Shown one piece after another: positions 20,773 to 41,816 of a stretch of DNA of 52,331 nt (position 1 is the first letter of the stretch; each line of letters begins with the position of its first letter). The notes beneath the pieces are model-generated. The model made no database searches. It had not been told where the DNA came from and was given only the letters and a program-made list of their open reading frames with translations. The position numbers and the translations under genes are program-made. Origin of the DNA: Desulfocapsa sp. (GTDB lineage: Bacteria > Desulfobacterota > Desulfobulbia > Desulfobulbales > Desulfocapsaceae); contig JAQYVF010000028.1 of NCBI GenBank assembly GCA_030145625.1, forward strand, positions 1-52,331, in the 5' to 3' direction.

Positions 20773-22107
20773 TTAGCAAATCACAGAGCCAACCTTCTGG
20801 GCTTCTTTTTTTTGGGATAAATACCAACCAACAAGTGCCCCAGAAATCATTATATAAATCGGATTCACCATCGCATTAACCAGGCAATCAATCATAAAAC
20901 AAATCACTACCAGGCTAAGAACTACGGAATCAGGGATAAATAAATTTTGATTTTCGGCCTTCTTCATTGATTGTAATACAAGCCAAGGCCCTATCAGCAT
21001 TGAACCGACAAAAGAAACAAGCCCCAAGAAGCCTTTGGAAATGAGAATAATTATCCAAAGTGCGTCTATGGCCTTGATCATTCGTCTTCCTGTTTCAGGA
21101 TCGATAGGCCAGCCCCGAGAATATCCTCCCCAGCCGAACAGGGGGCTTTCCATAGCTCGTTCAAGGAACAAATCTTCCTGCAAGAGTCGAAAGCTCAACG
21201 AGCTAACTCGTTCAGGGTCAAAAATCGTGGCAGCTACCATTTCAACATCCTGCCCTGACAGTACCCCTGAAATACGTAGAGCTAGATAGAGGGGAACTCC
21301 AAGCAACAAGAAAAGAAAAATTTTGTTACTACGGCGCATAAAATAGCAACCACAACCAAGGGTCAGAAAAAACCAACCATTTGCGGATTTACAAAGCAGA
21401 GAAGTTATTACTAGTAGCATAACAAAAAGCGACATTGGTATCCCTTTAAGGCATTTAATAATGCGGCTTCGCCATAACCAGAAGGCAATAGTGGAGGAAT
21501 TTGCCATCCACAGAGCAACCATCAAGCCGTGTTGCAGAAAGACAATGGGACGCCAACCACCATATCGCCAATGTTGTTTCCAATCATGTGGGAAGAACCC
21601 ATACAATATTTTGCTAAGCTGAGGGCTCATCCTTACTTCAAAAAGGCACAAGAATACATATAATATCCCCCCAAATACAATACCCAGACACAAATCTCGT
21701 AACTTCTCATGGCTAGTAATGTAGATCCGTCCGGCGAGATAGGGAACTAACCACCCCACGAAATGCCCCCAAGCGGTAGACAAGCCATCATACAAACCAA
21801 GTTGATTGGTCAGGGAAGTGATAATGGGAGAAAGGCACCAGATAACCATGGGAAGATCATAGATCTTCCAGGAAAAAAAAGTTACCTGTCTCTTACCTGA
21901 CAGACGACCACCAAGAATCAGACCTAGGGCAATTGCTGTGCTTTTTGAATATTCGGGAAGACCAGGCAAATTATACACAGCCGTGGGCAACAACAGCCAG
22001 CCGCCAATAACGATAAAAAGAACAGCCCGGTGCGGTTTAAGGCAATTAAAGAGAATGACTGCTAATGGAACCCAGCCAAAAAGCATTATTGGCACGAGAA
22101 TAGTCAT
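20773..22107 (-). CDS. O-antigen ligase/polymerase-like (Wzy) membrane protein
   Basis: A 444-residue protein with about 10-12 transmembrane segments. The large periplasmic loop contains MESPLFGWGGYSRGWPIDPETGR, matching the xPLFGxG motif of the O-antigen ligase/polymerase superfamily (PF04932). It probably polymerises the lipid-linked repeat units at the periplasmic face. It is the only polymerase candidate in the window. It starts 4 bp after the WecG-STAS gene, indicating translational coupling. Confidence 0.8.
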   Translation of the reverse strand: MTILVPIMLFGWVPLAVILFNCLKPHRAVLFIVIGGWLLLPTAVYNLPGLPEYSKSTAIALGLILGGRLSGKRQVTFFSWKIYDLPMVIWCLSPIITSLTNQLGLYDGLSTAWGHFVGWLVPYLAGRIYITSHEKLRDLCLGIVFGGILYVFLCLFEVRMSPQLSKILYGFFPHDWKQHWRYGGWRPIVFLQHGLMVALWMANSSTIAFWLWRSRIIKCLKGIPMSLFVMLLVITSLLCKSANGWFFLTLGCGCYFMRRSNKIFLFLLLGVPLYLALRISGVLSGQDVEMVAATIFDPERVSSLSFRLLQEDLFLERAMESPLFGWGGYSRGWPIDPETGRRMIKAIDALWIIILISKGFLGLVSFVGSMLIGPWLVLQSMKKAENQNLFIPDSVVLSLVVICFMIDCLVNAMVNPIYIMISGALVGWYLSQKKEAQKVGSVIC

Positions 22108-22111
22108 CCAG

Positions 22112-23236
22112 CTATTTCTCTTTCATATTTAGTAGACCATGGACAGAGAAAAGCCCAAATAAGCTGTCCAGCCGACTATTCACATTAATAAAAACAAGTT
22201 TTTTACCATGTTTATGCTGGTGTTTTTCCAGGAGAAGCAGTAGACCCATGAAGGAACCATCCACAAATTCAGTCTTCTGAAAATCAAGGGTAATATCTTT
22301 GCAAGAACGTACGCAGCTAATAAAGACCTGGCGCACCGGAAAATTTTTTGTTACCTGAAGATTACGACCAAAGGAGAGGACTATTTCATTAGCAAGATCC
22401 TGCTGGATAATCCTCTTATCTGGTTGCTCTCGAATGTACTGTTTTTGCCAGGAAAGGAATTGTCTCCATAACAAAAATCGCCCCACTACCAAGCGCAGCA
22501 TTACAAAACCATCAGTGGCATACCTAGTAAACAGTTTCGGCTCCTGAATGATACGCCATGCCCATTCCATACCAGTAACCCTGAAAAACTTTGGCGCACG
22601 ACGAACAGTCCCTGCCAAAAAGTTGATAGTAGCTCCAAGATGGCTTGTAATTCCCACATGTAAATGTTTTCGGTTATGCTCAATCCATGCCGTACCTTTA
22701 TTTGCCCCAAGAGCAACAAGGAGAATATCAGGCTGCACCCTATTTATTTCATCAATAACAGCATCACTACTCATCTCTTCTACTGTACCAAAACCTGGAT
22801 TGAGAGCACCAACAGCAGTCAACCCACTAGGGCTACTATTAATTCGTTCCATTGCCAATGTTCCAACGCCTTCTTCTCCGCCAAAGAAAAAGATTGAAAG
22901 CTTTTGTTTTGTTTTTTTATCCTCATGCAATTCCTGAGTAGTACTTGAGCCTGCAACAACCTCAGTCATAGGATATCCTAATAATTTTGAGATCCAGAGG
23001 AGAGGCCGACCATCAAGAGTAATAATATCACTATTAATAATAGCTTTCCGAAACTCCAAACTCCGCGAAGATTGTACAACCCAATTGACATTTATTGTGG
23101 ACCAAACAGTAGCCTCATTCCGCTCAGTTTTTGACCGGAACCGTTTCTTTGTTGATTCAACAGTCAAATTATCTACTGGTATTCCTAAAAGGCAGTAGAC
23201 ATCTCGATTAAAATCTTTCGAAATATGGTCATTCAT
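22112..23236 (-). CDS. WecG/TagA/CpsF glycosyltransferase fused to a STAS domain
   Basis: A 374-residue two-domain protein. Residues about 15-245 are a GT26 WecG/TagA/CpsF enzyme: VYCLLGIPVDNLTVE, STINVNWVV, ITLDGRPLLWISKLLG, FFFGGEEGVGTLAME and ILLVALGANKGTAWI with HLGATINFLAGTVRRAPKFF. It adds N-acetylmannosaminuronate- or N-acetylmannosamine-type sugars to a lipid carrier in known homologues. Residues about 270-374 look like a STAS domain (DITLDFQKTEFVDGSFMGLL, then KKLVFINVNSRLDSLFGLF), the fold of anti-sigma-factor antagonists. Normal GT26 proteins are about 240-270 residues, so the extra domain is an unusual fusion. The STAS part may regulate or localise the enzyme (inference). Confidence 0.8.
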   Translation of the reverse strand: MNDHISKDFNRDVYCLLGIPVDNLTVESTKKRFRSKTERNEATVWSTINVNWVVQSSRSLEFRKAIINSDIITLDGRPLLWISKLLGYPMTEVVAGSSTTQELHEDKKTKQKLSIFFFGGEEGVGTLAMERINSSPSGLTAVGALNPGFGTVEEMSSDAVIDEINRVQPDILLVALGANKGTAWIEHNRKHLHVGITSHLGATINFLAGTVRRAPKFFRVTGMEWAWRIIQEPKLFTRYATDGFVMLRLVVGRFLLWRQFLSWQKQYIREQPDKRIIQQDLANEIVLSFGRNLQVTKNFPVRQVFISCVRSCKDITLDFQKTEFVDGSFMGLLLLLEKHQHKHGKKLVFINVNSRLDSLFGLFSVHGLLNMKEK

Positions 23237-23288
23237 GTTTAGAACAAATCTTATAGTTATACCTTTCTACTAATTCCACAGTTGTTCC

Positions 23289-24119
23289 TCAATTCTTCTT
23301 ATTATGGCTGAATAGCCTAGGGAAAATCGTTTGTTCTCTCATTGCTATTCTTGTTATGCCATGCCCCCAAAACAATTCCTTATACTCAACAGGACTGCCA
23401 AGAGTCTTCAGTTCTTCAATCATTTGACGTGCATTATTTATTGGGGAAACACGATCAAATTTCCCATGAAATACCATAATAGGTAGGTTTTTAATTTTAT
23501 GTGCTTTTGTTGGATCAGATCTACCATTTAATATGACTGCTGCAGCAAATTCTTCCGGATGTCTCGTTATTATATCCCAAGTTCCAGTCGCCCCCATGGA
23601 GAATCCCATTACATAGAGACGACTTGAGTCCACAGGTAAATTATCCTTTAATCGACCAATTAACTTCATCACCATTTGCAAATAGACACCTTCTTGAATT
23701 GCATCCTGATCATAATTGCGTAGCGGCCTTTTACCACATTTCATATCAACCCATTGGTGACCATGTGGGCATTGTGGGACTAATACATAGGATGGATATT
23801 TTTTTTGAAAAGAATCAGAAGTAAGCAGATCAACAATTCCGTTTAACTGCCTGTAATTATCATCCCCTCTTCCGCCGGCTCCATGCAAGTACAAAATCAA
23901 CGGTATTTTTCGAGAAATCTCTGAAACGGCAGGACTATAGAGGCGATACGGCAATGAAGCAGACAGTTTATCCGAATCAAAAACATGTGTTGTTGTTCTC
24001 CCAGCAACTTCACTTCTTTGTTTAACCGATATGGAAGCAACCATTCTATTCCTATAAGAAAAAAGCAATATACCGACAATGATCACTAAGAAAATTATAA
24101 AAACAACCTTATATTTCAA
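23289..24119 (-). CDS. Membrane-anchored alpha/beta-hydrolase (esterase-like)
   Basis: About 276 residues. An N-terminal transmembrane anchor (YKVVFIIFLVIIVGILLFSY) is followed by an extracytoplasmic alpha/beta-hydrolase. PLILYLHGAGGRGDD is the oxyanion-hole strand, VMGFSMGATGTWD the nucleophile elbow with Ser in GFSMG, MVFHGKFDRVSP the acid-containing strand, and LFWGHGITRIAM the probable His. It resembles feruloyl-esterase/PHB-depolymerase-like enzymes. I choose the TTG at 24119: GGGGAG lies 5 nt upstream, the anchor starts immediately, and a longer reading would overlap the SUMF1-like gene. A periplasmic role in releasing or trimming an ester-linked product is possible (inference). Confidence 0.75.
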   Translation of the reverse strand: MKYKVVFIIFLVIIVGILLFSYRNRMVASISVKQRSEVAGRTTTHVFDSDKLSASLPYRLYSPAVSEISRKIPLILYLHGAGGRGDDNYRQLNGIVDLLTSDSFQKKYPSYVLVPQCPHGHQWVDMKCGKRPLRNYDQDAIQEGVYLQMVMKLIGRLKDNLPVDSSRLYVMGFSMGATGTWDIITRHPEEFAAAVILNGRSDPTKAHKIKNLPIMVFHGKFDRVSPINNARQMIEELKTLGSPVEYKELFWGHGITRIAMREQTIFPRLFSHNKKN

Positions 24120-24151
24120 GATATCTCCCCCACATTCAAACTTTTTATCGT

Positions 24152-25060
24152 CTATTTTCTTAGTGTTGCAACCAGCCGAAATCCTATTCCACTTGCTCGA
24201 TAATCCGGCAGTTGTGAACGTCGTGCTGCAGATCGGCAAAATTTTTGCAGATAGGCCCAACTTCCTCCTCGCAGGACTCTTTCGTCTCCGGTTTCATTTA
24301 ACGGATCACATATATTATCAATATATGTTTCAGGAATTACGTTTATTCCTTCACTTCTATCCTCACACCATTCCCACACATTTCCATGCATAGCATGAAT
24401 ATTCCAGGAATTCGGTGTGTGATGTGACACCGGATAGGTCCTTCTATTTTTATGAATAAACTTGAAAGCAGGATATCTCTTATAAAGATCTAAAAATCGC
24501 CTGTCTATATTCCCTTGACGAATTGCCAATTTCCTTCCAAAGGAATACGCTTGCTGGCTCCCGGCTCTACATGCATATTCCCATTCGGCTTCTGTAGGAA
24601 GACGAAAAGAAAACTCATTTGATTGATTGAGCCAATCAATCAATTCTTGCGTATCGTTCCATGAAATACAGGTTATTGGATGATCTTCACCTTGGGGGAA
24701 ACCAGGGCGGTCCCACACACATTTTTCGGACATTTCCCAATCATACCTGGGAAGTATCCTTTGTAACTTCCAGTTTTTATTCTCTACAAGTTCCCATGCC
24801 CCCCCAGTACGTTCCGCTTCTGTCCTGTATTGTTGTTGTTCTACAAATTTACTCCAAAGATCAACTGTTACTGCTGTACTTTGAAGATTAAATCCTTTTG
24901 TGATTGACACAGTGTGCAACAGCTCCGATGGACGACGACCAGGTTCATTTTCAGAACTCCCCATCAAAAATTCACCTGCAGGAATATACACAAATGTCAT
25001 CCCCTCTACCTTCAGGATATCACCTGCCTTCAACGATTCGCCAGTCTTCACACCAAACAC
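24152..25060 (-). CDS. Formylglycine-generating-enzyme (SUMF1)-family protein
   Basis: About 302 residues of the FGE-sulfatase domain family (PF03781). Motifs: MTFVYIPAGEFLMGSSENEP, HTVSITKGFNLQSTAVT, HPITCISWNDTQELIDWLN, FRLPTEAEWEYACRAGS, MHGNVWEWCEDRS, VLRGGSWAYLQKFCRSAARR and GIGFRLV. Only one of the two active-site Cys of true FGEs seems to be present in the RGGSW...C segment, so it is probably not a formylglycine generator. The family also includes EgtB- and PvdO-like enzymes and structural or binding proteins. I choose GTG 25060 because GGAGAGGAG precedes it by 7 nt; this places it 4 bp after the PKS stop. Confidence 0.75.
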   Translation of the reverse strand: MFGVKTGESLKAGDILKVEGMTFVYIPAGEFLMGSSENEPGRRPSELLHTVSITKGFNLQSTAVTVDLWSKFVEQQQYRTEAERTGGAWELVENKNWKLQRILPRYDWEMSEKCVWDRPGFPQGEDHPITCISWNDTQELIDWLNQSNEFSFRLPTEAEWEYACRAGSQQAYSFGRKLAIRQGNIDRRFLDLYKRYPAFKFIHKNRRTYPVSHHTPNSWNIHAMHGNVWEWCEDRSEGINVIPETYIDNICDPLNETGDERVLRGGSWAYLQKFCRSAARRSQLPDYRASGIGFRLVATLRK

Positions 25061-25064
25061 CTTT

Positions 25065-28000
25065 TCACTCCTCTCCCTGAGACGATAAATCAATAGCCTT
25101 TCGCAGCCTTATACTTAACAATTTACTCAATTCCTGAGCATGCGGTTCCATGGGAACCAAACGATGACTTCCGGATATGACGTGGGTCCTAACTCCATTC
25201 AAGGCAAGCTCTTTCCAACCCATGGCGGGATCGTGTGGACTGAACAAAGACTGCCTTTTGGCCCTGAACACTTCTACTTTCACCTTGCAGGGTACAGGAT
25301 AATGTTCACGCTGCAATTTCAGATTATTTTCCATAATGTGATATCGTTCAGGATCACTCAATTCATTGATATCAAACATTTCATCAAACAAGATATGATT
25401 CGCTTTTGCAGCTCCTTCCTCATGTCGATCTAACAGAGAGTCAATTTTAAATTTCACTACCCTCCGAGTCCTTTTTAATTTGTTCGTTATGCTTAATCGC
25501 ATGCCTTTCATATCCATTTTTAAAAAATCATGAACAAAAAATGGAATATTATTCAGGAATCTCCACACATATCCTGGTGACAAGGTGATTTTCCCATAGC
25601 TGGTATTTGTCGGCCATGACTCAATCAACCCGAGAAAGGAAACTTCATCACCTGCAGCAGTCAGCTGACAGGCTATCTCATAGGCCAGTGCACCACTATA
25701 ACAGTAACCAGCCAGACAATAGGGCCCTTCGGGCTGCAATGCCTTCATCTCTTTTATATAATACGAAGCCATCTCTGAAAAAGTTGCAAACACCTTCCCG
25801 GCAGGGACACTGAAACCATATATCGGTTGTTCCTGATCAATATGTTTGGTGATATACACATAGCCCCAATGCACATTGCCATTGATGCCATGGGGGATAA
25901 ACAACTTTGGCCGGGTTTTATCGGTTCCCTCCCTCAGTAAAACAAGAGAGGTCCAATTCGGATTAAAGTCATTTCCTACAGTTAACGATTTCGCCAAAAA
26001 TCGAATTGTTTGCCCATTTGCCAAGACTTCAAGGGGAACATGTTTTCCCGACTCAACAATGATACGATCCATGACCCGAACAGCAAGAAGAGAGTCGCCG
26101 CCTAATTCAAAGAAATTATCATCAACACCAATTCTTGAAAAACCTAGCTCCTCCTGCCAAATCCCAGCAACAAATCTTTCAGCCTCAGTAGACGGTTCCC
26201 TATATTTGGTGTGTAAACCAGGGCGATCATAAAAGGGGGTGGAAACCTTCTGAGAGTTATTCTCTTTTACAAGATCGTTTTTGTTGTCCCGCACCTCATC
26301 CGATATTCCTGTCAGGCCATCCGAAACTATTTGGGCCGGATTCTTCCTGGTTATTTGCGAATCTAACCAAAATCTTTTCCCATCAAACGGATACGTCGGC
26401 AGAGGAATTTTTTGTCGCAGCTCTCCGCCTCCAAAACCTGACCAGTCCACCTTTACTCCTGCAGACCATAACTCCCCGAGACAGTTTAACAGGATAGCAG
26501 GATCATCTTTCCGCTCAACCGGTCGCCGGGTTGTTGGTAACAATAAACAATCTTTACTCTCTGGATGCAGCCTGGCAAGATTAACCAGAACCTGCCCTGG
26601 GCCCACTTCGACAAAAGATTGCCTTCCTTCCTTAAAAAGGGTATCCACACAGGGAGCAAACCGAACAGTCCGGCGTAAATGCTTGGCCCAGTATTTCGGT
26701 GATCTTGCCTCCTCATTAGTGATCCAGGTTCCACTGACATTTGAAACAAAAGGTATTTGCGGAGCACTTAAGGGAAAGGAAGAAACAGCTTTGGCAAATT
26801 CTTCTACTATGGGCTCCATCATATGCGAATGAAATGCATGTGATGTGTGTAATACTCGGCACTCAAGGCCCTTGTCCTTTGCCATTTTCTCTTTGAAGGC
26901 GATTATATCATTTTCCTCTCCTGAAACAACCGTCAGTTCCGGACCATTGATTACCGCTACAGATAAGTCAGGCGACAGCAGAGGAGTCAAATTTTCTTCT
27001 GACAAAGGCACCGCCAGCATGGAACCGGGATCAAGGTCCTGCATCATCTTGCCACGCCTGGCAACCAGAGTCAGAGCATCATCAAGGGTAAACACTCCAG
27101 CCAAACAGGCGGCGACATATTCACCAATGGAGTGGCCGACCATTGCTTTGGGGGTAATCCCCCAACTCTCCAAAAGTTTTGCCAGACTATACTCGATAAC
27201 AAAGAGGGCCGGTTGGGCAATGCGGGTCTGGTTGATAAGTTCTTTGGCAGCCGGGACGTTATCCGGACTGGGAAAGAGTATCTCACGCAGATCTAAATTG
27301 ATAAACGGCTTGAGAACTTCCACGCAATAATCAAGCTGATCCCGGAAGAGAGGCTCTGTCTTATATATCTCCTCTCCCATTCCGACATATTGCGAACCCT
27401 GGCCGGAAAACATGAAAACAACATCCTGTTTTCGTCTCTCTCCTTCCCGGGAATAAACAGGATCTACATTCCCCGAAAGGAAAGTAACAGCCTGATCTAT
27501 ATCTTTACATACGGCAGCCCACCTGTAATCAAAATGTTTGCGCCCGACCTGCAACGTATACGCCGCATCTGGCAAATCCACTTTCGGGTTATCTTGCAGA
27601 TAAGCGGCCAGATTTGCGGCTGCCCGTCCCACCCCGTCCCTGGTCCTGGCAGAAACCAATAGTAGTTGCCAGGGGCGTGACTCGCTTGCATTCTGCAAGG
27701 CAGGAGCCTCTTCCAGGACAACATGGGCATTCGTGCCACCTATACCAAACGAGCTGACCCCGGCACGGCGAGGGCCATTATCGCTCTGCCAGTCAGTTAG
27801 TTCAGTGTTCACATAAAATGGGCTGTTGGGGAAATCAATATCGGGATTTTGTTCCTTGCAATGAAGAGAAGACGGAATCTCCTTATTTTTCAAAGAAAGT
27901 GCCGTTTTAATAAGCCCTGCTACGCCAGCGGCCTGGTCAAGATGGCCAATATTTGTCTTTACAGATCCTATGGCACAATAATTTTTTGCAGCTGTCTTAA

Positions 28001-32275: not shown

Positions 32276-35200
32276 CGTCTCAGGCTCTCCCCCTGTAAAG
32301 ATCTGCGCTGCTGCACCAGAAGAGCTTTTCGTCGTAATGCTGCCTGGTTCGCTACCGCCACCTCTTTTTTACCATCATTGCCTTCAAGGAGGTAATTGGC
32401 AAAAGAGGAGACCGTTGGATATTGGAAAAATTTAACGGTTGGTATCTTTACAGCCATCTTCTTTTCAATAGCTGTAAGCACCTGCAAACAGAGCAGCGAG
32501 TTACCCCCTAAATCAAAAAAGTTATCATGGACTCCCACTGTTCCGGCCTTCAGCACATCATTCCATATGGAACACAGCAGTGTCTCTGTCTTACTGCCGG
32601 CTTGCGCAGGTGCCCGTACACCTTCCGCCAACACCTGCTCCGGGAGTGCTAATGCCGCACGATCAATCTTTCCATTTGCCGTTAAAGGCATATGTTCAAG
32701 GTGCACAAAAAAAGAGGGCAGCATATACCGGGGCAGTTTTGATTGAAGAATGGTTCTGTGATTCACAGAGGGAATTCCGTTCTCACCACTGGTGAAATAG
32801 GCAACCAGGCGCTGATCCCCCACTCCGACCTCTTTTACAAGAATTGCTGCCTGCCCAACTCCGGGGCAGGCCAATAAAGCGGCCTCAATCTCACCCAACT
32901 CGATACGATAGCCTCGCAATTTAATCTGCTGATCAACCCTGCCATGGAGTTTTATCCTCCCATCAGGCAGATATGTCGCCATGTCACCGGTATGGTACAG
33001 TTTCTGACCCAAGATACTGCTGAAAGTATCAGGAGTGAATTTCTCGGCAGTCAGGTTCGGACGGGCCAGATAGCCCTTTGTCACCCCTGCACCGCCAATG
33101 AGCAATTCTCCGGCCACACCTATGGGCGTTGGCTGACCATATTTATCAACGATATATGTCTGGGTGTTGGCAATCGGCCTGCCTACTAAAACGGTACTAT
33201 CATCCTCACTGACCCGGTGACAGGTAGACCATACTGTCGTTTCAGTCGGACCATAGAGGTTCCAGACAGAACTGGCTCGCTGCAACAGTTCCCCAGCAAG
33301 GTCTGCAGGCATGGGCTCCCCACCACAAAGGGCCTTAAAATTTTCCGTCCGTTTCCAGCCCCCAGCTATAAGGAGATGCCATGTTGTCGGAGTAGCCTGC
33401 ATCACCGTAATATGCAGCTCAGCTATCAGCTTTTTTAACTGTTGCCCATCAGCTATACTCCTCTGCGGAGCAATAACAACTCGCCCTCCCACAGATAATG
33501 GCAAAAACAACTCCAACACGGAGATATCAAAGGAAAGGGTGGTAACGGCTAATAGGGTATCTTCTTCAGTGAGTCCCGGGGCATCTGCCATGCTTGTTAG
33601 AAAATTAACGACCGCTTGGTGATGAACCTGAACCCCTTTGGGCCTGCCCGTAGAACCGGAAGTATAAATCACATAAGCCAAATCATCGGCTGTGGTTTTC
33701 GGATCCAAATGGTCTGCCGGATACTTCTCGATTTCCGGCCATTCCGTATCAATATAAATTTCTTTGCCTGTATGTGCAGGAAGTTGGCCGGCCAGGTTTT
33801 GTTTGGTGAGCAGAACGGCGACATTCGAGTCTTCCACCATATAACCAATGCGCTCCCGGGGAAAATCAGGATCAAGGGGGACATAGGCCGCACCGGCTTT
33901 TAAGACCGCCAAAAGAGCAACCAGCATCTCAATGGATCTTTCCAGAAAGATCCCCACAAGTCCACCTGGAACGACACCATTGCGTTGCAGATAGTGAGCT
34001 AACTTGCTAGCCCTTTCATCTAATTCCTTATAGGATAATTGTTCATCTACAAATGAACAGGCTATGGAATCAGGCCGTTTCCGGGCCTGTTTCTCAAAGA
34101 GGTGCTGCAGACAGATGTTATCAAGAAATGGTACTTCGGTGGCATTCCACTGCGCCACTAAAAGGTCCTGTTCTTTTGCAGGTAAAATTGACAACTGGTC
34201 AATAACTACTTTCGCATCCAGCAACACCGATTCCAATAACCGGTGGAAATGGCCCGTAAACCGTTGAACAGTTTCCTTTTCAAAGAGATCGGTATTGTAT
34301 TCAAACATACCGTGCAGCTCTTCATCCTGCTCCCAGAGATTGGCGAAGAGATCCAGTTGCGCACCGGAATTATGGATTTTTTCGCTCTTAACATCCAGCC
34401 CCTGCAGCCTTAGCTCCATCGGAGGCTCGTAGGTGAAACCAACCTGAAAAAGAGAATTATAACTTGGGTCACGTTCAGGCTGCACCTCTTTCACCAGCAA
34501 CTCATAAGGAACTTCCTGGTTCCTGTGAGCGGTAAGCATACCTGCCCTGACCTGCTGCAGAACATCGCCAAAGGTGTTTTTTGATGGAGAAAGTGAAAAT
34601 GAGAGAGGCAGAACGTTTACAAAACAGCCAAAGGTATCTTTATGCTCTTTTTGCCGACGGTTGCTAAACGGAATACCGATTGTGATCTCTTCCTGCCCAC
34701 TATACCTGTAAAGTAAAATCAGATACGCTGAGAGGGTAACAAGAAAGATGGTCACCTTGTTTTGCCGACTATATCTCTTCAGTTTTTGAGTAAATTCGGC
34801 AGAAAACCGAAATGGAACAGCAGCGCCACGCAATTCTTGCGTAGCAGGCCGTTGTCTCTCCAGAGGAAGATTGAGATAGGACTTGGTATCCTTCATCTTT
34901 TCTGCCCAAAATGATAGGCTTGCCCTGTACTGTTCGCCGTGCAGAAACTCCTGTTGCCAGGCTGAATAATCAGCATACTGCGTTATCCTCTTCTCCAGAC
35001 ATGGCCTTTCTTTTTTCACATAAGCGTTATAGTGGCTAGAAAGCTCAGCGGAAAAGATATCTTTTGAATGAAGGTCCGTTATAATGTGATGCATAACAAC
35101 GAGTAAAAACCAATCAACTTCCGAATTCCGGTATAATTTCACCCTGAATAACGGACCAGCCGCCAGGTTAAAAGGTTGACGGATGTCGGCCTGGATCATA

Positions 35201-35520
35201 CTCCTTATTCTTCTTTCCCGTTCCTGTTCATCAAAATCTGGTACCCAATCAACACCAGATCCAAAGTCAGTAGCCAGGTCACCGGCCTCATGGACAACTT
35301 GCCAGAGCTTGCCGTTTTCTGACAGAAAGGTTGATCGTAAAACCTCATGCCTGAGAAGAACAGTATCAATTCCATGTTTCAGGGCACTCCTGTTGAGATG
35401 GCCAGAAAGGCGGAAAAGTGAAGGAATATTATAAGCACTGTTGTCCGGCTGAATCTGGTTAATCAGCCAAAATTGCTCTTGTATTATAGAGGCAGGATAT
35501 TTCACAGATGTTTTTTTCAT
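32272..35520 (-). CDS. NRPS module C-A-PCP, predicted glycine-specific
   Basis: A 1082-residue module. Condensation domain with HHIITD at 144-149; adenylation domain with YVIYTSGSTGRPKGV, SFDISVLELF, NLYGPTETTVWS and YHTGDMATYLPDG; PCP with DNFFDLGGNSLL. The pocket residues read D-I-L-Q-L-G-L-V-W-K, the usual glycine signature. It is the first NRPS gene in transcription order yet begins with a condensation domain. It should therefore accept an acyl or aminoacyl donor supplied in trans, perhaps from the free ACP two genes upstream. The gap to the PP-loop gene is 15 bp. No epimerase. Confidence 0.92.
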   Translation of the reverse strand: MKKTSVKYPASIIQEQFWLINQIQPDNSAYNIPSLFRLSGHLNRSALKHGIDTVLLRHEVLRSTFLSENGKLWQVVHEAGDLATDFGSGVDWVPDFDEQERERRIRSMIQADIRQPFNLAAGPLFRVKLYRNSEVDWFLLVVMHHIITDLHSKDIFSAELSSHYNAYVKKERPCLEKRITQYADYSAWQQEFLHGEQYRASLSFWAEKMKDTKSYLNLPLERQRPATQELRGAAVPFRFSAEFTQKLKRYSRQNKVTIFLVTLSAYLILLYRYSGQEEITIGIPFSNRRQKEHKDTFGCFVNVLPLSFSLSPSKNTFGDVLQQVRAGMLTAHRNQEVPYELLVKEVQPERDPSYNSLFQVGFTYEPPMELRLQGLDVKSEKIHNSGAQLDLFANLWEQDEELHGMFEYNTDLFEKETVQRFTGHFHRLLESVLLDAKVVIDQLSILPAKEQDLLVAQWNATEVPFLDNICLQHLFEKQARKRPDSIACSFVDEQLSYKELDERASKLAHYLQRNGVVPGGLVGIFLERSIEMLVALLAVLKAGAAYVPLDPDFPRERIGYMVEDSNVAVLLTKQNLAGQLPAHTGKEIYIDTEWPEIEKYPADHLDPKTTADDLAYVIYTSGSTGRPKGVQVHHQAVVNFLTSMADAPGLTEEDTLLAVTTLSFDISVLELFLPLSVGGRVVIAPQRSIADGQQLKKLIAELHITVMQATPTTWHLLIAGGWKRTENFKALCGGEPMPADLAGELLQRASSVWNLYGPTETTVWSTCHRVSEDDSTVLVGRPIANTQTYIVDKYGQPTPIGVAGELLIGGAGVTKGYLARPNLTAEKFTPDTFSSILGQKLYHTGDMATYLPDGRIKLHGRVDQQIKLRGYRIELGEIEAALLACPGVGQAAILVKEVGVGDQRLVAYFTSGENGIPSVNHRTILQSKLPRYMLPSFFVHLEHMPLTANGKIDRAALALPEQVLAEGVRAPAQAGSKTETLLCSIWNDVLKAGTVGVHDNFFDLGGNSLLCLQVLTAIEKKMAVKIPTVKFFQYPTVSSFANYLLEGNDGKKEVAVANQAALRRKALLVQQRRSLQGESLRR

Positions 35521-35535
35521 AGCAAAGAGATAAGG

Positions 35536-36573
35536 CTATCTGCCAATTGCTTTGATTTCCTCTTCTGAGAAGGCTAATTCCTTCATTATGGCAGTTATGA
35601 CCTCCGGTTGCAGGGTATCGGATAATTTCTGCAAGGCCTCTTCTCTCGTTATTTTTCCTTTCCTTATCAGGTGGCTTAATTCCAGTTCATACGGACTATA
35701 GCGAAAATTTTTCTGATGGATGAAGTTATTAAAACCATTCAACCTGCAATTTGATGAACACCCGTCTACATCTCTGGGACTTACCCATCCAATTTGCGCA
35801 ATCACCTGAAACATCTCTGCTTCAGTCGGGTCCTCTACACACAAGAGATTAACATTATAGGGGAATGCCTTTGTCTTATTAAGCAATGAATCCTTTATGC
35901 AGAAATAATCATCAACCGCATGACCAAGGGAATCACGAAGTCTTTCCAGGTAGACTTCTCTACTTTCTCTGAAAAAATGGTAATTATTTTTATAGACTAT
36001 CCCATTTGCAGGGATCTGACCAAGGGTAAACCCTGCCAATATAAATGGAACCTCTTTTTCCAGGGCCAGTTTCAGGGCACTATTATTAACAACTGAAATA
36101 CAGGAATTGCATATTGCGGATATACGAACCAAAGTTTTAGGAGAGTAAACCTCTTCAAGGGCGCTTACCTTAATCAATGGTTTGAAAAATTTGGCCGAAG
36201 GAGCAAATGTTATCTGGTCTACCCCCAGCTCATCACAAATCCGGCGAATATTCTCAAAGGCAGCGGGAGAAGTAAACCCATTATCAAGGGTAAAGGCCAA
36301 GACCTTGAGGTTATACTTTTTAACGGCAGTCATCAGGGTATACGTACTATCTTTTCCACCGCTATAACACATTATGGCATCGTACTCAGCCTGCCCCCGC
36401 TCAGACTCAAAGAGTTCTACTATTCTCTCCTGAGCACGCTCAATGGTCGCCGCCTCAGTAGGCATATGCATCTCATCACGACAAAAACTACAAACACCAT
36501 TCTCATCAAAGGCGATAGTAGGAAAAGATGAAGAGAGCACACACTTGCAACAACGTTCCGGAGAAGTTGTCAT
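35536..36573 (-). CDS. PP-loop ATP pyrophosphatase with Cys-rich motifs
   Basis: A 345-residue protein of the adenine-nucleotide alpha-hydrolase fold. The PP-loop is SGGKDS at 71-76, which adenylates a substrate carbonyl. An N-terminal zinc-ribbon-like set (Cys8/9/11 and Cys28/31) matches the start of WbpG-type sugar amidotransferases. A central CNSC (155-158) plus Cys272/276 resembles the CxxC-plus-Cys arrangement of TtcA/Ncs6-type sulfur transferases. Two readings remain: transfer of ammonia to make an amide or amidine, or of sulfur to make a thioamide. It overlaps the ACP gene by 4 nt and precedes the NRPS genes, so an intermediate of that line is a plausible substrate. Confidence 0.7.
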   Translation of the reverse strand: MTTSPERCCKCVLSSSFPTIAFDENGVCSFCRDEMHMPTEAATIERAQERIVELFESERGQAEYDAIMCYSGGKDSTYTLMTAVKKYNLKVLAFTLDNGFTSPAAFENIRRICDELGVDQITFAPSAKFFKPLIKVSALEEVYSPKTLVRISAICNSCISVVNNSALKLALEKEVPFILAGFTLGQIPANGIVYKNNYHFFRESREVYLERLRDSLGHAVDDYFCIKDSLLNKTKAFPYNVNLLCVEDPTEAEMFQVIAQIGWVSPRDVDGCSSNCRLNGFNNFIHQKNFRYSPYELELSHLIRKGKITREEALQKLSDTLQPEVITAIMKELAFSEEEIKAIGR

Positions 36574-36815
36574 GACTCTTGCCCCTTAACAAAATCAACG
36601 ATGAGATGGACAGAGCCGAAATTACTCCTGGTCATCTGTTCTTCTTTTACCAGAATCCCGAATTCACTCTCAATAAATGAGGCAATTTCAATGAGACCGA
36701 ATGAGTCAATGATCCCCTCATCAATAAGAGATTCATCGAGGGGTATTTCATCGATTTCCACCATGAAATTACGGGCTATAAAATCGAGAAATTTTCCTTT
36801 AATATTTTCAGCCAT
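36570..36815 (-). CDS. Free-standing acyl carrier protein
   Basis: An 81-residue acidic carrier protein. The phosphopantetheine site is GIIDSFGLIE with Ser38; flanking helices match the ACP/DltC-like fold. It would hold an acyl or aminoacyl intermediate as a thioester. It lies between the AsnB-like amidotransferase and the PP-loop gene (4-nt overlap with the latter), immediately before the NRPS genes. This suggests it carries a starter unit that is modified by these enzymes and passed to the first condensation domain (inference). No phosphopantetheinyl transferase is seen in the window. Confidence 0.85.
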   Translation of the reverse strand: MAENIKGKFLDFIARNFMVEIDEIPLDESLIDEGIIDSFGLIEIASFIESEFGILVKEEQMTRSNFGSVHLIVDFVKGQES

Positions 36816-36839: not shown

Positions 36840-38816
36840 TCAGCAATCTATTATGTCAGTTGTTTTCAAGCTGTAATTCAATTTTTCTTTTTTCGGATTT
36901 TCAGCCCAGTGACAACACATCTGGGTAGATAAAAGAAACGTAATTAACATATTATCTCGATAACCAATATTTTCGGGAAGTTTCCTCTTAAATTTATTAA
37001 TTAAGCGGCCGACATATTTCTTATCAAAAATACCATAGTTATCGATGACAGGATCGGAAAGGAAATACTCAGCACTCTCAGTCAGTTTTCCATTAACAAA
37101 AAAGGATTTCAAATCCGGTGACATATATGGGCGTTTGGGACGATTAACAATTACAGAAGGTATGTTTTCTTCAAATGCCTTTGTTAAGAGATATTTTTGC
37201 TTTAAAATTTTCATTTTATAGCTATCCGGATAGTGAAATACCTTTTCTATCAACCTGTGATCCAGAAATGGATAACGGCCTTCCACACTATGAGCCATGG
37301 ACATTCGATCGCCCTGAGATGAAAGAAGGTATCCAGACAATAAACTTTTAATCTCTAGGAATTGATTCCTCTGCAACAGGCTCCATGATGAAAAATTATC
37401 CGGGATGGCTTGCTTGATTTTCCCCAACAGACCTTGATGATCAAAAGATAACTTGAAATCTTTATTAAAAAAATTGGCAATCGCCTTATTATTATGCACC
37501 CTGATATTCAGGCTGGCCATTTCATTCGTTATGTTCGTCAGAAAACCTTCGTAATACATCCGCATCATACCAAACTGTCGAGAGTCCTTATAATGCTGCA
37601 AATGGGGATAGAGACGTTTGATGAGCAGTGGTCTCAGCTTGGATTCAGGTTGTTTACGCCAAAAATCGAGAAGCTTAAGCTCTTTAAAAGAATCATAGCC
37701 AAACAGAATCTCATCTGCACCCTCACCGGTAAGGACAACCTTTATCCCTTGTCTGTTTACCTCTTCAGAAAGCAAAAAAAGAGGCACAGGGGCGGTCCTG
37801 AAAATTGGACGTTCAAGGTGATAAACCGCATCCGATAGCGTACGGTTAATCATCTCATAGTTGACCTTCACCTCAGTATGGTCGGTGTTGAGATGGGCTA
37901 CCATTTCCTGTTGATAAGTAGATTCATCAAAATCTTTATCAGAAAAAGCAACAGAAAATGTCTTGAATTGATCCGCCTTTATCCGGGAAGTCAAGTGGGT
38001 TATCACGGAGGAGTCAATGCCACCACTCAGGTATGTTGCCACAGGTACATCGCTCCGCAACCGTAATGTTATGGAATCTTGTAACAGCTCCTTAAACTCC
38101 CCAACTGCCTGCTTAAAAGATGGAGGGCTGGCAGGAGGAGTTGATTCGCCAATTTCATAATATCTAAAGGTCTTAGGGAAGGTATCTTCTCCATAAATCT
38201 CATAACATCCTGCTGGCAATGAACGGATATCTTCAAAAACCGTTGCATCATTCAGAGTGTTCCACAACAGGGCATGCTCAAAGAGATTATGCATATCCAA
38301 ACTGCGTTGATAACCCTTTATTGCATCAAAAGCCTTGACCTCTGAAGCAAAGTAATATGTTTTGCCAAGCTGCAAAACATAGAGAGGTCTTATGCCCAAT
38401 CTGTCCCGGGCCACTAAAAGTCTTCTTTCTATTCTATCCCACAACAACAGAGAAAATTGTCCGTTAAACCGAGACAAGGCCTCTGCTCCGTAGACTTCAA
38501 AAGACTTAAGGACCACCTCGGTATCACAATTTGTCTGAAATCGTATCCCCTTCTGTTCAAGCTCCTCCCGCAACTCAATATAATTAAAGATTTCCCCGTT
38601 ATAACTGATGGCATATCTTTCAGTAACCATGGGTTGATGCCCACCTTCAATATCAACAATTGAAAGGCGTACATGACCAAGGGAAACCTGATCCGTCCGA
38701 TACGTTCCCCACCCATCAGGACCACGATGCACCAGAGCAGACAGCATTCCCTCAGTAGTAGAAGGGCTATCCTCAGAAATCTTCGCAGCGTTATATATTC
38801 CAGCTATGCCACACAT
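36840..38816 (-). CDS. AsnB-like class II glutamine amidotransferase/synthetase
   Basis: A 658-residue asparagine-synthetase-type protein. Cys2 in MCGIAGIYN is the glutaminase nucleophile; RGPDGWG (31-37), SYNGEIFNYIEL (71-82) and the DTE motif near 98-100 complete that domain. The synthetase domain has YLSGGIDSS (262-270). The length and setting fit the amidotransferases associated with exosortase systems, which are thought to amidate EPS components. Another known use of such enzymes is amidating acyl groups for polyketide starters, as OxyD does in oxytetracycline synthesis. The adjacent ACP makes that worth considering. It lies 12 bp after epsI. Confidence 0.85.
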   Translation of the reverse strand: MCGIAGIYNAAKISEDSPSTTEGMLSALVHRGPDGWGTYRTDQVSLGHVRLSIVDIEGGHQPMVTERYAISYNGEIFNYIELREELEQKGIRFQTNCDTEVVLKSFEVYGAEALSRFNGQFSLLLWDRIERRLLVARDRLGIRPLYVLQLGKTYYFASEVKAFDAIKGYQRSLDMHNLFEHALLWNTLNDATVFEDIRSLPAGCYEIYGEDTFPKTFRYYEIGESTPPASPPSFKQAVGEFKELLQDSITLRLRSDVPVATYLSGGIDSSVITHLTSRIKADQFKTFSVAFSDKDFDESTYQQEMVAHLNTDHTEVKVNYEMINRTLSDAVYHLERPIFRTAPVPLFLLSEEVNRQGIKVVLTGEGADEILFGYDSFKELKLLDFWRKQPESKLRPLLIKRLYPHLQHYKDSRQFGMMRMYYEGFLTNITNEMASLNIRVHNNKAIANFFNKDFKLSFDHQGLLGKIKQAIPDNFSSWSLLQRNQFLEIKSLLSGYLLSSQGDRMSMAHSVEGRYPFLDHRLIEKVFHYPDSYKMKILKQKYLLTKAFEENIPSVIVNRPKRPYMSPDLKSFFVNGKLTESAEYFLSDPVIDNYGIFDKKYVGRLINKFKRKLPENIGYRDNMLITFLLSTQMCCHWAENPKKEKLNYSLKTTDIIDC

Positions 38817-38828
38817 AAATTCACTTGG

Positions 38829-39488
38829 TCACGGTACAGACAACTCACCGACATCAACAAAATTAATAAATAGAGGGTAAAAGGCCTCAATAAAATTGAT
38901 AGCACTCTGTTTTGCCAGATTATATTCAACATTGTCCAACGGCACAGAAACTCGGACAAAGGCATGTTGTTCGCCGTTATTCATGAGCTTGTTATATCCC
39001 ATATCAATCTTGTTCTGAACAATTTGTGTATTCGTCTGGTGGTGAGCCTGATACCAATACAAGACAAGTTCTTTCTCATTTGTCTGAGAGGTGATAATCT
39101 CATCATAGTAAATCTGATGGTCACCTGCGTTGAGAGTATGATGGGAAGGTTTCCCTTCTATTTTCCAACCTTGGCTGGGATAGCAAACAAGAGGCGAGTG
39201 TGCAGCATATGCCTTATTCGCAGTATAGTAATAGCCGATGTATAGATTTACTTTACCGTTAGGCCCCTCGTAATCCGCATAGAGATGATCGTCCAACTTC
39301 AACATTTCCAGTGAATTATCAGCAAGTTGCACCTGGCGAACGGTTTTATAATTCTCTATATTCTCCAAAAACTGTTTTATTGGTGGTTTACTAAGTGGTA
39401 CCGTGTCGTTCCTGGTATAGACAAAGACAGAGGTAACCAAAAACACCATACTCAGCACAAGCAGCTTTCTGTTTATTTTGCTTCCCAA
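38829..39488 (-). CDS. epsI: EpsI-domain protein, exosortase partner
   Basis: A 219-residue protein with one N-terminal membrane anchor (LLVLSMVFLVTSVFVY) and an EpsI domain. Marks of the family are the HSPLVCYPSQGW segment, LYIGYYYTA and VLYWYQ. EpsI-type proteins accompany exosortases, either fused or as a separate gene, and act at the outer face of the inner membrane; their exact role is unknown. The start is TTG 39488, supported by AAGGGA about 8 nt upstream, and it overlaps the exosortase gene by 16 nt. Confidence 0.8.
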   Translation of the reverse strand: MGSKINRKLLVLSMVFLVTSVFVYTRNDTVPLSKPPIKQFLENIENYKTVRQVQLADNSLEMLKLDDHLYADYEGPNGKVNLYIGYYYTANKAYAAHSPLVCYPSQGWKIEGKPSHHTLNAGDHQIYYDEIITSQTNEKELVLYWYQAHHQTNTQIVQNKIDMGYNKLMNNGEQHAFVRVSVPLDNVEYNLAKQSAINFIEAFYPLFINFVDVGELSVP

Positions 39489-40309
39489 TATTCCAATCCC
39501 TTATGGAGGAGCAACAACATTATCATGGCCATGCCGAAAAGCATCAAACCAGTCATGGTGTGCAACGAACCTTCCGTAAGATCCAAACTGAAGAGATGGA
39601 ACAGGAGTATCATTGCAGTCACTCTGATTATATTAATAAGAATAGCGATTGGTAGACTTGCAATCAGGAGAACCAGCTTAGAAACTTTTGTTTCAAGCAT
39701 GAAATATCCCATGATAATACTCAGAGTCACCAGGCTAATGATCGACCGCATCCCGCTGCATGCCTCTACAACCTCAAAACTTTTTGTCGGAATATTCATA
39801 ACATTGCCTTCACGCAGAATAGGCACACCAAACATCCCAACTACCAGCTCGCTCACTTGAGAAACTTTTAGTTGGAGGGGGAAGGTAAGGTTAACATAAA
39901 GTTGCTCTGGTACAGGAATGAGCAGCAGAAGGAGAATTAACGGGGTAAAGAGTTCCCAGGCAGCATTAATGCCAGCCAAGTAGACAAGTACGCCGAGAAC
40001 AGTCAGGACCATTGACAGGGAAATAATGGTATGAACCTGGGTCAACATGGCAAAAAAGTAAAAGAGCGTGGCAAACAGTACAAGGATCAAGCCTCCGGAG
40101 GAGTATCGCACCTGGTCGCAAACCAAGACAGATCGTTTATCCCACACCATATACAAGATAATTGGAAGAATGAGAAATGCGTGACTGTACTCTTCCAGAG
40201 TCAACCATTTTTCCACAAGGAGTTGAAAAATTGGGTAATAGCTTGCAGCAAAAAGAGCGCATACCAGCAAGGCTAATATAATTGTGTTGGTGTTCTTTCT
40301 GATTACCAT
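39473..40309 (-). CDS. Exosortase (PEP-CTERM transpeptidase-like)
   Basis: A 278-residue integral membrane protein with about eight helices. The Cys-Arg-His triad of the exosortase/archaeosortase family is visible: Cys184 in VEACSGMRSI, Arg229 in LINIIRVTAM and His250 in LHTMTGL. It should recognise the PEP-CTERM tail, cleave after it, and probably attach the protein to an acceptor. The likely substrate in this window is the protein at 44263-44859. It is a short type with a separate EpsI. Subtype (XrtA and others) cannot be fixed by eye. Confidence 0.88.
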   Translation of the reverse strand: MVIRKNTNTIILALLVCALFAASYYPIFQLLVEKWLTLEEYSHAFLILPIILYMVWDKRSVLVCDQVRYSSGGLILVLFATLFYFFAMLTQVHTIISLSMVLTVLGVLVYLAGINAAWELFTPLILLLLLIPVPEQLYVNLTFPLQLKVSQVSELVVGMFGVPILREGNVMNIPTKSFEVVEACSGMRSIISLVTLSIIMGYFMLETKVSKLVLLIASLPIAILINIIRVTAMILLFHLFSLDLTEGSLHTMTGLMLFGMAMIMLLLLHKGLEYWEAK

Positions 40310-40403
40310 TAAACTTCAACATTATTTGGTGCGCATGACACACCCTGCATTCAACAACTGATTTATCTAAAAACAGAAGCGATTAAAGCCATAATCACAT
40401 TTC

Positions 40404-41816
40404 CTACACAGCCCCTTTTGACTTCAAAACAGACGGAATAGTCTTCAACAAAATTTTCAGATCCAACCAAAGAGACCAGGTTTCAATATATTCCAGGTCG
40501 AGCTCCAGCCATTTATGGAATGGCAGATTACTCCTCCCTGAAATTTGCCAGATACAGGTAATCCCAGGATTGACACTGAAACGTTTGCGTTGAATTCCCT
40601 TATCAAAGAGATCGACATCACGGGTGGACATGGGCCGGGGCCCAACCAGACTCATTTCCCCCCGTAACACATTAAACAATTGCGGAAGCTCATCTATGCT
40701 GCTTTTTCGAAGAAAATGCCCCACTTTTGTCACGCGTGGGTCATTGGTCATTTTAAAAATAGGCCCCTCCGCCTCATTTAAATGCTCGATTTCTTTGAAT
40801 CTCTCTTCCGCATCAATATACATGGAGCGCATCTTGAACATGGGAAAAAGATGCTTCCGCAAGCCAACCCGTTGCTGCACAAAAAATATCGGGCCGGGAG
40901 AATCCAGTTTAACGGCGATTGCAGCAACTGCGAGAATTGGCAAAAAAATCGGCATTGCCAGCAGGGTAACCGTAACATCGAAAATGCGTTTCACCAGTAG
41001 TTGGGTGTCATCCTGGGAAACTGGTTCCAGCGTCAATAAGGGTGCATCTCCCATCTGGGTCAGGCTGATACGGGCGACATGCAAATTAAAAACATCTGCC
41101 ATAAAACGTAATTTAATGCCCTCCAGTTCACAGGCCAGAACGATAGGTTCAGCGTCGTTCAGCAAGGAGCGAGGGATTGCGATAATCACCTCATCGACCA
41201 CATGATTTTTCAGGATATCACTGATATTGTCAACAGCACCTATGACAGGAACATCATCAACAAACTGCCCAACCCGCGTATGGTCAGGGTCGAGATGGCC
41301 GACAATTTCAACCCCCCAGTCTGACTGTTTTTTGAGGCCCTGCACTAATTCTTTTGCTCTTTCGCCCGTACCGATGATCAATATCTTTAATGAATGCTCT
41401 CCACTTGCCACTGCACGATTAAAATATATCTTTGTTACAACACGAACAGTTACGAGTGCAATTAACTCCACAACAGCAAATGCCAGAATCACTGCGCGAC
41501 TGACATATTGAATATTTAAAAAAAACAAAAGAATTAAAAGGATACCAATAGCAAGAGAGACGCCACGAGATACAGCCCAGACATACCATTTAATCGTAGT
41601 ATGCCGAGGAAGATCGTATGCACCGAAATGAGAGAGAAAAGTAACTAATAACACCAACAAAAGAGGAAGGAGAAACAAATGGGAAACAAAATCAATATCC
41701 TCTCCCGCAGTCAATATATCTCTAGCCAAAAACGAAAGCAGAAACATTACAATGGATAATAGAACATCCAACAGAAAAACAGTCCTATTGAGCTCTATTG
41801 AACGAGCATCATACAT
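40404..41816 (-). CDS. Undecaprenyl-phosphate sugar phosphotransferase (priming)
   Basis: About 470 residues. Four to five N-terminal helices are followed by a CoA-binding-like domain (LKILIIGTGERAKELVQGL) and a last membrane segment. The catalytic domain of the bacterial sugar transferase family holds LDSPGPIFFVQQRVGL, FKMRSMYIDAEERF, LRKSSIDELPQLFNVLRGEMSLVGPRP and PGITCIWQISGRS. It moves sugar-1-phosphate, often glucose or galactose, to undecaprenyl phosphate, the first step of EPS synthesis. I choose ATG 41816 because CAGGGGG lies just upstream, six codons inside a possible TTG. It is the first gene of the long minus-strand series. Confidence 0.88.
   Translation of the reverse strand: MYDARSIELNRTVFLLDVLLSIVMFLLSFLARDILTAGEDIDFVSHLFLLPLLLVLLVTFLSHFGAYDLPRHTTIKWYVWAVSRGVSLAIGILLILLFFLNIQYVSRAVILAFAVVELIALVTVRVVTKIYFNRAVASGEHSLKILIIGTGERAKELVQGLKKQSDWGVEIVGHLDPDHTRVGQFVDDVPVIGAVDNISDILKNHVVDEVIIAIPRSLLNDAEPIVLACELEGIKLRFMADVFNLHVARISLTQMGDAPLLTLEPVSQDDTQLLVKRIFDVTVTLLAMPIFLPILAVAAIAVKLDSPGPIFFVQQRVGLRKHLFPMFKMRSMYIDAEERFKEIEHLNEAEGPIFKMTNDPRVTKVGHFLRKSSIDELPQLFNVLRGEMSLVGPRPMSTRDVDLFDKGIQRKRFSVNPGITCIWQISGRSNLPFHKWLELDLEYIETWSLWLDLKILLKTIPSVLKSKGAV

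Follow-up and report, generated by a model that had tools for sequence, protein, structure and literature searches.

What is an assembly line of nonribosomal peptide synthetase (NRPS) and polyketide synthase (PKS) modules doing inside an exopolysaccharide (EPS) locus that encodes an exosortase? The question was raised by a stretch of 52,331 nucleotides from Desulfocapsa sp. (contig JAQYVF010000028.1 of assembly GCA_030145625.1; the whole stretch is called the window), in which an initial annotation, made from the letters alone, had placed such a line in an exosortase/PEP-CTERM locus. Using Pfam and NCBIfam profile searches for the domain identities, we confirmed the observation itself and found its interpretation partly supported. 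The listed genes of the block 20773-41834 all lie on the minus strand and the largest intergenic gap is 94 bp, which bears out the described one-strand arrangement with gaps of at most 94 bp; of the "many" 4-nt overlaps reported, exactly three exist (PKS/NRPS2, NRPS2/NRPS1 and PP-loop/ACP). In the order of transcription, the block encodes a priming transferase, an exosortase, EpsI, an AsnB-like enzyme, a discrete acyl carrier protein (ACP), a PP-loop protein, NRPS1, NRPS2, the PKS, a protein like formylglycine-generating enzyme (FGE), an esterase, a WecG-STAS protein and a membrane protein. The profiles agreed with the gene identities given earlier, except that the supposed polymerase (20773-22107) had no Pfam match even at E<=1. 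The reading that we prefer, with a probability of about 0.4, is that this exosortase/EPS locus carries a widespread set of an amidating enzyme, an ACP and an iron-sulfur (Fe-S) PP-loop enzyme, elaborated here into a thionating NRPS-PKS line.

We regard the PP-loop protein (35536..36573, -), which the initial annotation had listed without comment, as the diagnostic part of the locus; its cysteines look like those of CtaC and TtuA. It has the AANH fold, shared with N-acetyl sugar amidotransferases (NASATs), as TIGR03573 and a fold model indicate, and we propose it as a CtaC-type thioamide (or amidine) synthetase. Alignment of 34 of the PP-loop proteins gathered showed that the motif SGGKDS (residues 71-76; 36346..36363, -) and the CxxC pair Cys155 and Cys158 (36100..36111, -) are invariant in 34/34, and that the triad formed with Cys276 (35746..35748, -) is likewise kept in all of them. 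The three cysteines are the proposed Fe-S ligands, Cys276 being placed by the alignment and by comparison with CtaC residues. One other PP-loop relative, at L086, has no such triad. For nonribosomal peptides, the first thioamide synthetase with a carrier-bound substrate to be reported, in 2019, was CtaC of the closthioamide pathway; it requires C154, C157, C284 and D77/S78, and it acts on a carrier-bound substrate (PMC6772006). The triad would mark an Fe-S PP-loop enzyme and the carrier-protein setting a thiotemplate pathway, and neither would by itself prove thioamidation.

The same enzyme recurs in a simpler set. In three congeners (G003, G006 and G007), an AMP-ligase stands in place of the NRPS-PKS genes, and in two of these (G003 and G007) the simple set neighbours the galE that the window also has. 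The G003 set comes after GalE (83%), and the G007 set comes after EpsE (74%), a PEP-CTERM tail and GalE (84%), which are the window's neighbours too. In a phylum sample, an even draw of 297 genomes searched at a PP-loop threshold of E<=1e-60, the PP-loop protein was found in 25 genomes, the window included. Within 7 kb of the other 24 genes we found an ACP in 23 cases, a ligase in 21, AsnB in 11 and NadE in 6, and AsnB and NadE never occurred together. The corresponding counts among the matches listed for 35 named loci (L024-L026, L036 and five Paenibacillus loci being left out) were AsnB 19, NadE 12 and both 3; the named and phylum sets are not independent, as they share genomes (e.g. L027/L141, L060/L160 and L041/L147). 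The NadE is a short form without the glutaminase domain (in L030, 412 bits against a cut-off of 313), and in several loci (e.g. L147 and L146) the place next to the ACP gene, in divergent orientation, is taken by either AsnB or NadE. AsnB and NadE both turn a carboxylate into an amide, and we therefore place amidation before the PP-loop step; their exchange argues that the set needs amidation and not ammonia supply. AsnB adjoins PP-loop NRPS genes outside EPS loci too (L014, L068, L075 and L078). The G003 set also contains a PrmC-like methyltransferase (hemK_fam, 174.6 bits; cut-off 115.5), and a similar gene was seen by eye in G006; the PrmC enzyme family methylates amide nitrogen. NCBIfam names an exosortase-associated ligase, TIGR03098, under whose cut-off the G007 ligase falls (379 vs 592 bits). 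Judged by gene content, the NRPS-PKS line reads as an elaboration of this simpler thiotemplate set.

Two further observations concern the ligase-type set. A PrmC/HemK-like methyltransferase gene lies in or beside it at L017:10502-11404, L018:1767-2669, L045 and L157. In five species of Paenibacillus (L056, L059, L061, L062 and L064), AMP-ligase, PP-loop and AsnB genes are followed by NRPS modules, and no exosortase was found in the two of these genomes tested.

The statistical tie of the PP-loop protein to exosortases came from the phylum sample. An exosortase was found in 117 of the 297 genomes, in 21/25 PP-loop carriers vs 96/272 non-carriers (Fisher one-sided p 2.4e-6, kinship ignored). Among the matches listed, from which at least one weak match (G198) was left out, 9 of the 25 carriers had their nearest exosortase within 20 kb on the contig of the PP-loop gene, vs 0.46 expected by random placing. 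Among 56 individually scanned genomes, 39 had an exosortase match; 36/48 with the PP-loop family and 2/8 of the outgroup were over the cut-off. We also compared 43 named loci (L024-L067 without L036, in which the genes are placed as in L021) with 34 outgroup loci, many of them from Streptomyces and Firmicutes, which are not a matched control. Among the matches listed, an exosortase or EpsI lay inside the fetched stretch in 8/43 named loci, from at least four phyla, and in 0/34 outgroup loci; at least two EPS families were found in 17/43 vs 0/34. The initial annotation had held thiotemplate parts to be foreign to exosortase loci, and these 8 loci with the simpler set speak against that claim. 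Among the most frequent Pfam families in the flanks were NAD_synthase (10), hexapeptide transferases (8), AAA_31 (7) and exosortase (5). This survey covered 128 open reading frames from 33 loci, chosen for their length and position and not by a gene caller; some of them are therefore not genes.

In the window, the simple set is joined to a complete assembly line whose domains carry their active-site motifs. The AsnB-like glutamine-dependent amidotransferase (36840..38816, -) matched TIGR01536 over its cut-off (465.6 bits), has Cys2 and SGGIDS, scored 360.9 bits against the cut-off of 816.9 for the XrtA-subtype family TIGR03108, and has 7ylz as its best solved relative. The discrete ACP (36570..36815, -; PF00550, 25.2 bits) has the serine of its DSFG motif. 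Pfam matches, motifs and pocket alignments identified NRPS module 1 (32272..35520, -) as condensation-adenylation-thiolation (C-A-T) with a Gly-type pocket, and module 2 (29012..32275, -) as C-A-T with a Ser-type pocket. The call rests on the pocket regions, nearest to 4zxh and 5u89 in NRPS1, which we take to activate Gly, and to Txo1/Txo2 and EntF in NRPS2, whose modules we take to activate Ser. The PKS module (25065..29015, -; Pfam and motifs) is composed of ketosynthase (KS), acyltransferase (AT), ACP and thioesterase (TE) domains, and Pfam found no reductive domain in it; the AT motifs GHSIGE and HAFH presumably indicate a malonyl type. By alignment, the TE nucleophile position is Cys (GYCYSG; 25701..25703, -), and EntF has Ser there (GYSLGG). 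Pockets, domains and linkage thus agree with the acyl-Gly-Ser-C2 assembly line, tied to EPS and exosortase genes, that had been proposed.

From these parts we infer a route in which an acid would be loaded onto the ACP, the AMP-ligase being the loader in the simpler sets, and AsnB would amidate the free carboxylate of the ACP-bound acid. The PP-loop enzyme would then adenylate the amide, and sulfide bound to a [4Fe-4S] cluster, as in CtaC and TtuA, would convert it into a thioamide; judged from the residues, the ACP-bound starter is probably thionated. NRPS1 would add Gly, NRPS2 Ser and the PKS one unreduced malonate, and the Cys-type TE would free the chain, possibly as a ring. The module order predicts an unreduced beta-keto end, so that the product may be an N-acyl tetramic acid, a lactone or a keto acid. 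We suggest that synthesis of the product accompanies that of the extracellular matrix and is probably meant for it; the product might serve as an EPS decoration, an anchor or a secreted compound.

We looked for the NRPS-PKS form in other genomes. In a close-relative sample of 96 genomes (own and order-level relatives; PP-loop threshold E<=1e-20), the PP-loop protein was found in 9, and in 5 of the 20 within the genus. One of them, G011 (60% identity), has the order AsnB-ACP-PP-loop-NRPS(Gly-type)-PKS. A scan of named genomes, covering at least 78 loci, yielded the form in at least three. Pseudoalteromonas NBT06-2 (L024) has a polysaccharide flippase and a glycosyltransferase upstream. A Desulfobacterales metagenome-assembled genome (L025) has Alg14-like and Wzz proteins and a tail resembling PEP-CTERM (17.9 bits). 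Alteromonadaceae Bs31 (L026) has a protein of PEP-CTERM-like type (19.4 bits), genes of rml type (recognised by eye) and a priming transferase. About 10 kb from AsnB, the Bs31 contig also holds a fusion of exosortase and EpsI, and an esterase gene lies within the Bs31 cluster. At the TE nucleophile position, the window, L025 and L026 have Cys, and G011 and L024 have Ser. The search for co-occurrence that the initial annotation had suggested therefore returned at least four other loci with the same set, three of them with local EPS or PEP-CTERM-like genes, although one bearer has no exosortase. A tree of 67 PP-loop proteins placed all five rows of the NRPS-PKS form in one clade (100/99) spanning two phyla, paired the window with G011 (98/94) and put the congeners G003, G006 and G007 into a separate clade with Desulfobulbaceae rows; long-branch rows lie outside these clades except L043, which is sister to the five on a longish branch. 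Because the bearers form one clade and the ligase-type congeners lie elsewhere, the NRPS-PKS form has probably moved between lineages by horizontal acquisition.

This history is what an autonomous secreted metabolite would look like, that is, a metal chelator, signal or antibiotic whose horizontally acquired genes are merely located within the EPS locus or share its regulation. The single clade over two phyla, the sporadic occurrence, the Pseudoalteromonas bearer without exosortase and the report that CtaC relatives lie mostly near thiotemplate or NRPS clusters (PMC6772006) all suit that explanation. A sporadic block found elsewhere without EPS genes had been named in advance as evidence against a link; sporadic it is, in 2/20 genomes of the genus and in Pseudoalteromonas without an exosortase, but polysaccharide genes adjoin the Pseudoalteromonas set. 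Local EPS or PEP-CTERM-like genes were in fact found in 4/5 bearers (window counted; among the matches listed), and it is because the form stays beside such genes that we argue for a functional tie to EPS. The line also lies between EPS genes with gaps below 95 bp, the simpler sets are tied to exosortases as well, and the 20 Pfam-scanned proteins (minus-strand genes, 14417-50220) include no drug-type transporter, resistance protein or regulator, which may, weakly, suit an EPS-linked product. We consider an autonomous metabolite somewhat unlikely.

The second alternative concerns the chemistry: the PP-loop enzyme could, like WbpG/WbuX, synthesise an amidine and draw its ammonia from AsnB, and the starter would then be an amidino-acyl-ACP. 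The curated family nearest to it in NCBIfam is TIGR03573 (N-acetyl sugar amidotransferase), and it carries in addition the N-terminal tetracysteine motif (C8, C11, C28 and C31); sugar amidotransferase has been described with a PP-loop and a tetracysteine (PMC10607449). A structure model built from the 34 sequences (pLDDT, the predicted local distance difference test score, 93.6) was compared with solved structures, Foldseek being included, and the closest fold was the sugar amidotransferase 8wex (Z 24.2; 325 residues; root-mean-square deviation 4.5), followed by closely tied folds of Fe-S-cluster-bound TtuA (Z 13.2), LarE, NcsA, NAD synthetases and nitrile synthetase. Two sugar NASATs also stand beside or near asnB. 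The TIGR03573 scores of 143.7 and 142.6 bits, however, are under the family cut-off of 203.2. No HisH/HisF-type partner was found among the 20 Pfam-scanned minus-strand proteins (14417-50220), whereas hisH lay within the fetched stretch of 6/8 sugar NASATs examined, and the Fe-S triad present here is absent from 8/8 of these plasmid-borne proteins, which were taken from 11 plasmid matches annotated as sugar amidotransferase. In other sets, moreover, AsnB is replaced by the short NadE, which has no glutaminase domain. An amidine synthetase is in our view improbable.

The compound to which exosortases would join their proteins was still termed unidentified in 2020 (PMC7468200). That the line makes this acceptor or anchor for PEP-CTERM proteins, in the manner of type IX secretion system (T9SS) cargo amide-bonded to a seryl/glycyl linking sugar, we regard as very improbable. 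In its favour, T9SS linking sugars contain exactly Ser and Gly, vimA-, vimE- and asnB-like genes adjoin some exosortases (PMC7468200), and a polysaccharide deacetylase and a protein of GNAT fold (Acetyltransf_6) are encoded in the window too. Against it, that GNAT-fold protein matched no NCBIfam family, 96/117 exosortase-positive phylum genomes have no PP-loop match at E<=1e-60, and, the Gly amine being acylated in an NRPS chain, a sortase-type attack would find no free amine except one supplied by the starter.

Several results weigh against the elaborated, thionating set that we prefer. For the enzyme, the nearest fold is that of a NASAT and not TtuA; the triad is also kept where no NRPS, ligase or ACP matches lie nearby (L077, L079-L085 and L095); and the window contig holds no further adenylation domain able to load the ACP. 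For the set, 7/24 phylum-sample sets have neither AsnB nor NadE within 7 kb. For the tie to the surface, only the 8 of 43 named loci show an exosortase or EpsI in the stretch and 26/43 have fewer than two EPS families, again among the matches listed; the order-level relatives gave an exosortase in 7/9 carriers vs 39/87 (p 0.06, kinship ignored), and as this test is not significant we base the tie on physical distance and on the phylum-wide figures. For the NRPS-PKS form, it is rare and mobile (2/20 genomes of the genus); the next best PP-loop identity in the phylum sample is only 42%; the NRPS contig and the exosortase contig of G011 are not joined, and another gene follows EpsI there; no exosortase was found in the genome of the Pseudoalteromonas bearer; and the PEP-CTERM matches of L025 and L026 narrowly miss the Pfam cut-off of 20.7. 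A wider proposal, that exosortase/EPS loci of several phyla carry a conserved thioamide pathway for the surface, as matrix decoration or part of a PEP-CTERM anchor, with the window as the elaborate form bearing a Gly-Ser-malonate line, seems doubtful to us.

PP-loop enzymes were also seen in other settings. Interrupted adenylation (A) domains are known to carry inserted methyltransferases; similarly, in the NRPS genes of L068-L074 the PP-loop match falls between two parts of the A-domain match and seems to be inserted in it, and in L068 an AsnB-like stretch directly precedes the insert. Plasmids of Roseovarius (L013) and Pseudohalocynthiibacter (L015, a stretch that carries no gene annotation) carry polysaccharide export and YjbF/YjbH genes next to an NRPS that includes a PP-loop domain, a further thiotemplate-EPS pairing outside the studied clade. 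In L089, L091-L094 and L096-L101, mostly from Streptomyces, adenylation and carrier matches, a PP-loop with the triad and then a KS follow in constant order; on their sequences, these may possibly form a separate sulfur-inserting NRPS-PKS group. In Azospirillum (L110) and Agrobacterium (L107), a sugar amidotransferase gene lies close to asnB, and the fetched stretch contains no hisH. Among viral contigs, no PP-loop relative was confirmed in 18 pattern matches.

The remaining genes of the window fit an EPS locus. The priming transferase for polyprenyl sugar-phosphate (40404..41834, -, with an ATG at 41816) scored over the cut-off of TIGR03025 (432.7 bits). The exosortase (39473..40309, -; PF09721, 216.1 bits) is the sole PF09721 match of the genome and is under the cut-off of the XrtA subtype (TIGR03109, 180 vs 208 bits); EpsI (DUF3485; 38829..39488, -) matched PF11984 with 138.6 bits. 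Downstream of the PKS, the FGE/SUMF1-like protein (24152..25093, -; PF03781, 171.4 bits) was rejected as a formylglycine-generating enzyme, as alignment placed a Ser at one of the two human FGE cysteines that we take to be active. No FGE match was found in L024-L026 (the G011 contig ends too early there), and for both reasons we kept this protein out of the mechanism. The alpha/beta esterase (23289..24260, -; Pfam) has an N-terminal hydrophobic segment and a relative inside the L026 cluster (L026:14179-15066, 33%). It is followed by a WecG/TagA glycosyltransferase with a STAS domain (22112..23236, -; Pfam), by the membrane protein (20773..22107, -), which is Wzy/ligase-like by appearance only, and by a GT2 glycosyltransferase (19744..20754, -; Pfam) that extends the block. 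Upstream, the next large gene is galE (42458..43471, -; profile match), 623 bp distant, whose G003/G007 relative adjoins the ligase-type set. Divergent from the block are the genes of a PEP-CTERM protein (44209..44859, +; PF07589, 30.1 bits, cut-off 20.7; TIGR02595, 27.4 bits, cut-off 16), a candidate exosortase substrate absent from the earlier gene list, and of an EpsE-like polysaccharide export protein (44961..46748, +; TIGR03027, 107.8 bits, under the cut-off of 180). A polysaccharide flippase gene lies at 14417, and a second EPS-type set with a deacetylase, glycosyltransferases and acetyltransferases runs on the plus strand from 3879. Consensus promoter scans (sigma-70 and sigma-54 style) and terminator scans gave matches not above those in shuffled sequence, and a stricter sigma-54 scan, run without shuffles, indicated no site.

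A 24-base element, GGAGCGAATTCATTCGCGAATCGG, occurs at 41977-42000, 42181-42204 and 51290-51313 (-), as two exact copies and one with 3 mismatches, where none is expected; two of the copies fall in the gap upstream of the priming transferase, and by look it is an element of the repetitive extragenic palindromic (REP) type. A DDE transposase gene stands at the left edge of the window (15-1532, -).

An exosortase-tied amidation-thionation set would offer a handle on both the exosortase target and thioamide chemistry, with few genes and an assayable enzyme. For genome mining, a "sugar amidotransferase" that has the Fe-S triad and is encoded next to an ACP could mark possible sulfur-bearing surface chemistry in uncultured bacteria. 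The recurrence of simpler versions of the set beside coat-building genes in distant bacteria points to an undescribed bacterial surface chemistry.

Compared with known systems, the window combines parts of several. With CtaC, its PP-loop enzyme has in common the PP-loop, CxxC...C at near-equal spacing and the carrier-protein setting (PMC6772006); this likeness rests on the described residues and not on the CtaC sequence, for which the clostridial L068 and L069 are stand-ins only. That report gives no sulfur-mobilising gene in the closthioamide cluster (PMC6772006), and here no sulfur-donor gene was found among the 20 scanned minus-strand proteins (14417-50220). Unlike CtaC, the window enzyme lies in an EPS/exosortase locus, with AsnB and a discrete ACP beside it and canonical Gly/Ser NRPS and PKS modules after it. 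It shares the overall fold and the N-terminal tetracysteine with WbpG/WbuX (TIGR03573; 8wex) (PMC10607449), but it is under the family cut-off, no HisH/HisF partner was seen and it has the extra Fe-S cysteines. The PEP-CTERM/EpsH system was reportedly first described in 2006. With the exosortase/PEP-CTERM EPS locus (Haft 2006), the window has in common the exosortase, EpsI, a PEP-CTERM protein, the priming transferase and the export protein, whereas its exosortase is under the XrtA cut-off, its AsnB is under the TIGR03108 cut-off and the NRPS-PKS modules are added. None of the terms carrier protein, acyl, ligase, polyketide and amidotransferase came up in a word search of PMC1569441. N-acyl amino acid synthases linked to exosortases (stieleriacines; Craig 2011) are a precedent for small acylated amino-acid products beside PEP-CTERM/exosortase genes (PMC7293339).

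Glutarimide polyketides start from malonamyl-ACP, made with an AsnB-like enzyme and a discrete ACP. The window resembles these systems in that a discrete ACP and a neighbouring AsnB-like enzyme precede a thiotemplate line, but an NRPS C domain comes next and an Fe-S PP-loop enzyme is added. A thioamide screen of 2026 relies on TfuA and not on CtaC (PMC13185837). None of the titles and abstracts listed in our searches of the open-licence literature describes, for an exosortase locus, an NRPS-PKS set or a PP-loop thioamide set, and the claim that no system of this composition had been described stands within that scope. The enzyme type itself is already known, CtaC-type relatives in NRPS clusters having been reported in 2019 (PMC6772006); what those titles and abstracts do not describe is the set in exosortase loci with its exchange of AsnB and NadE, together with the NRPS-PKS form.

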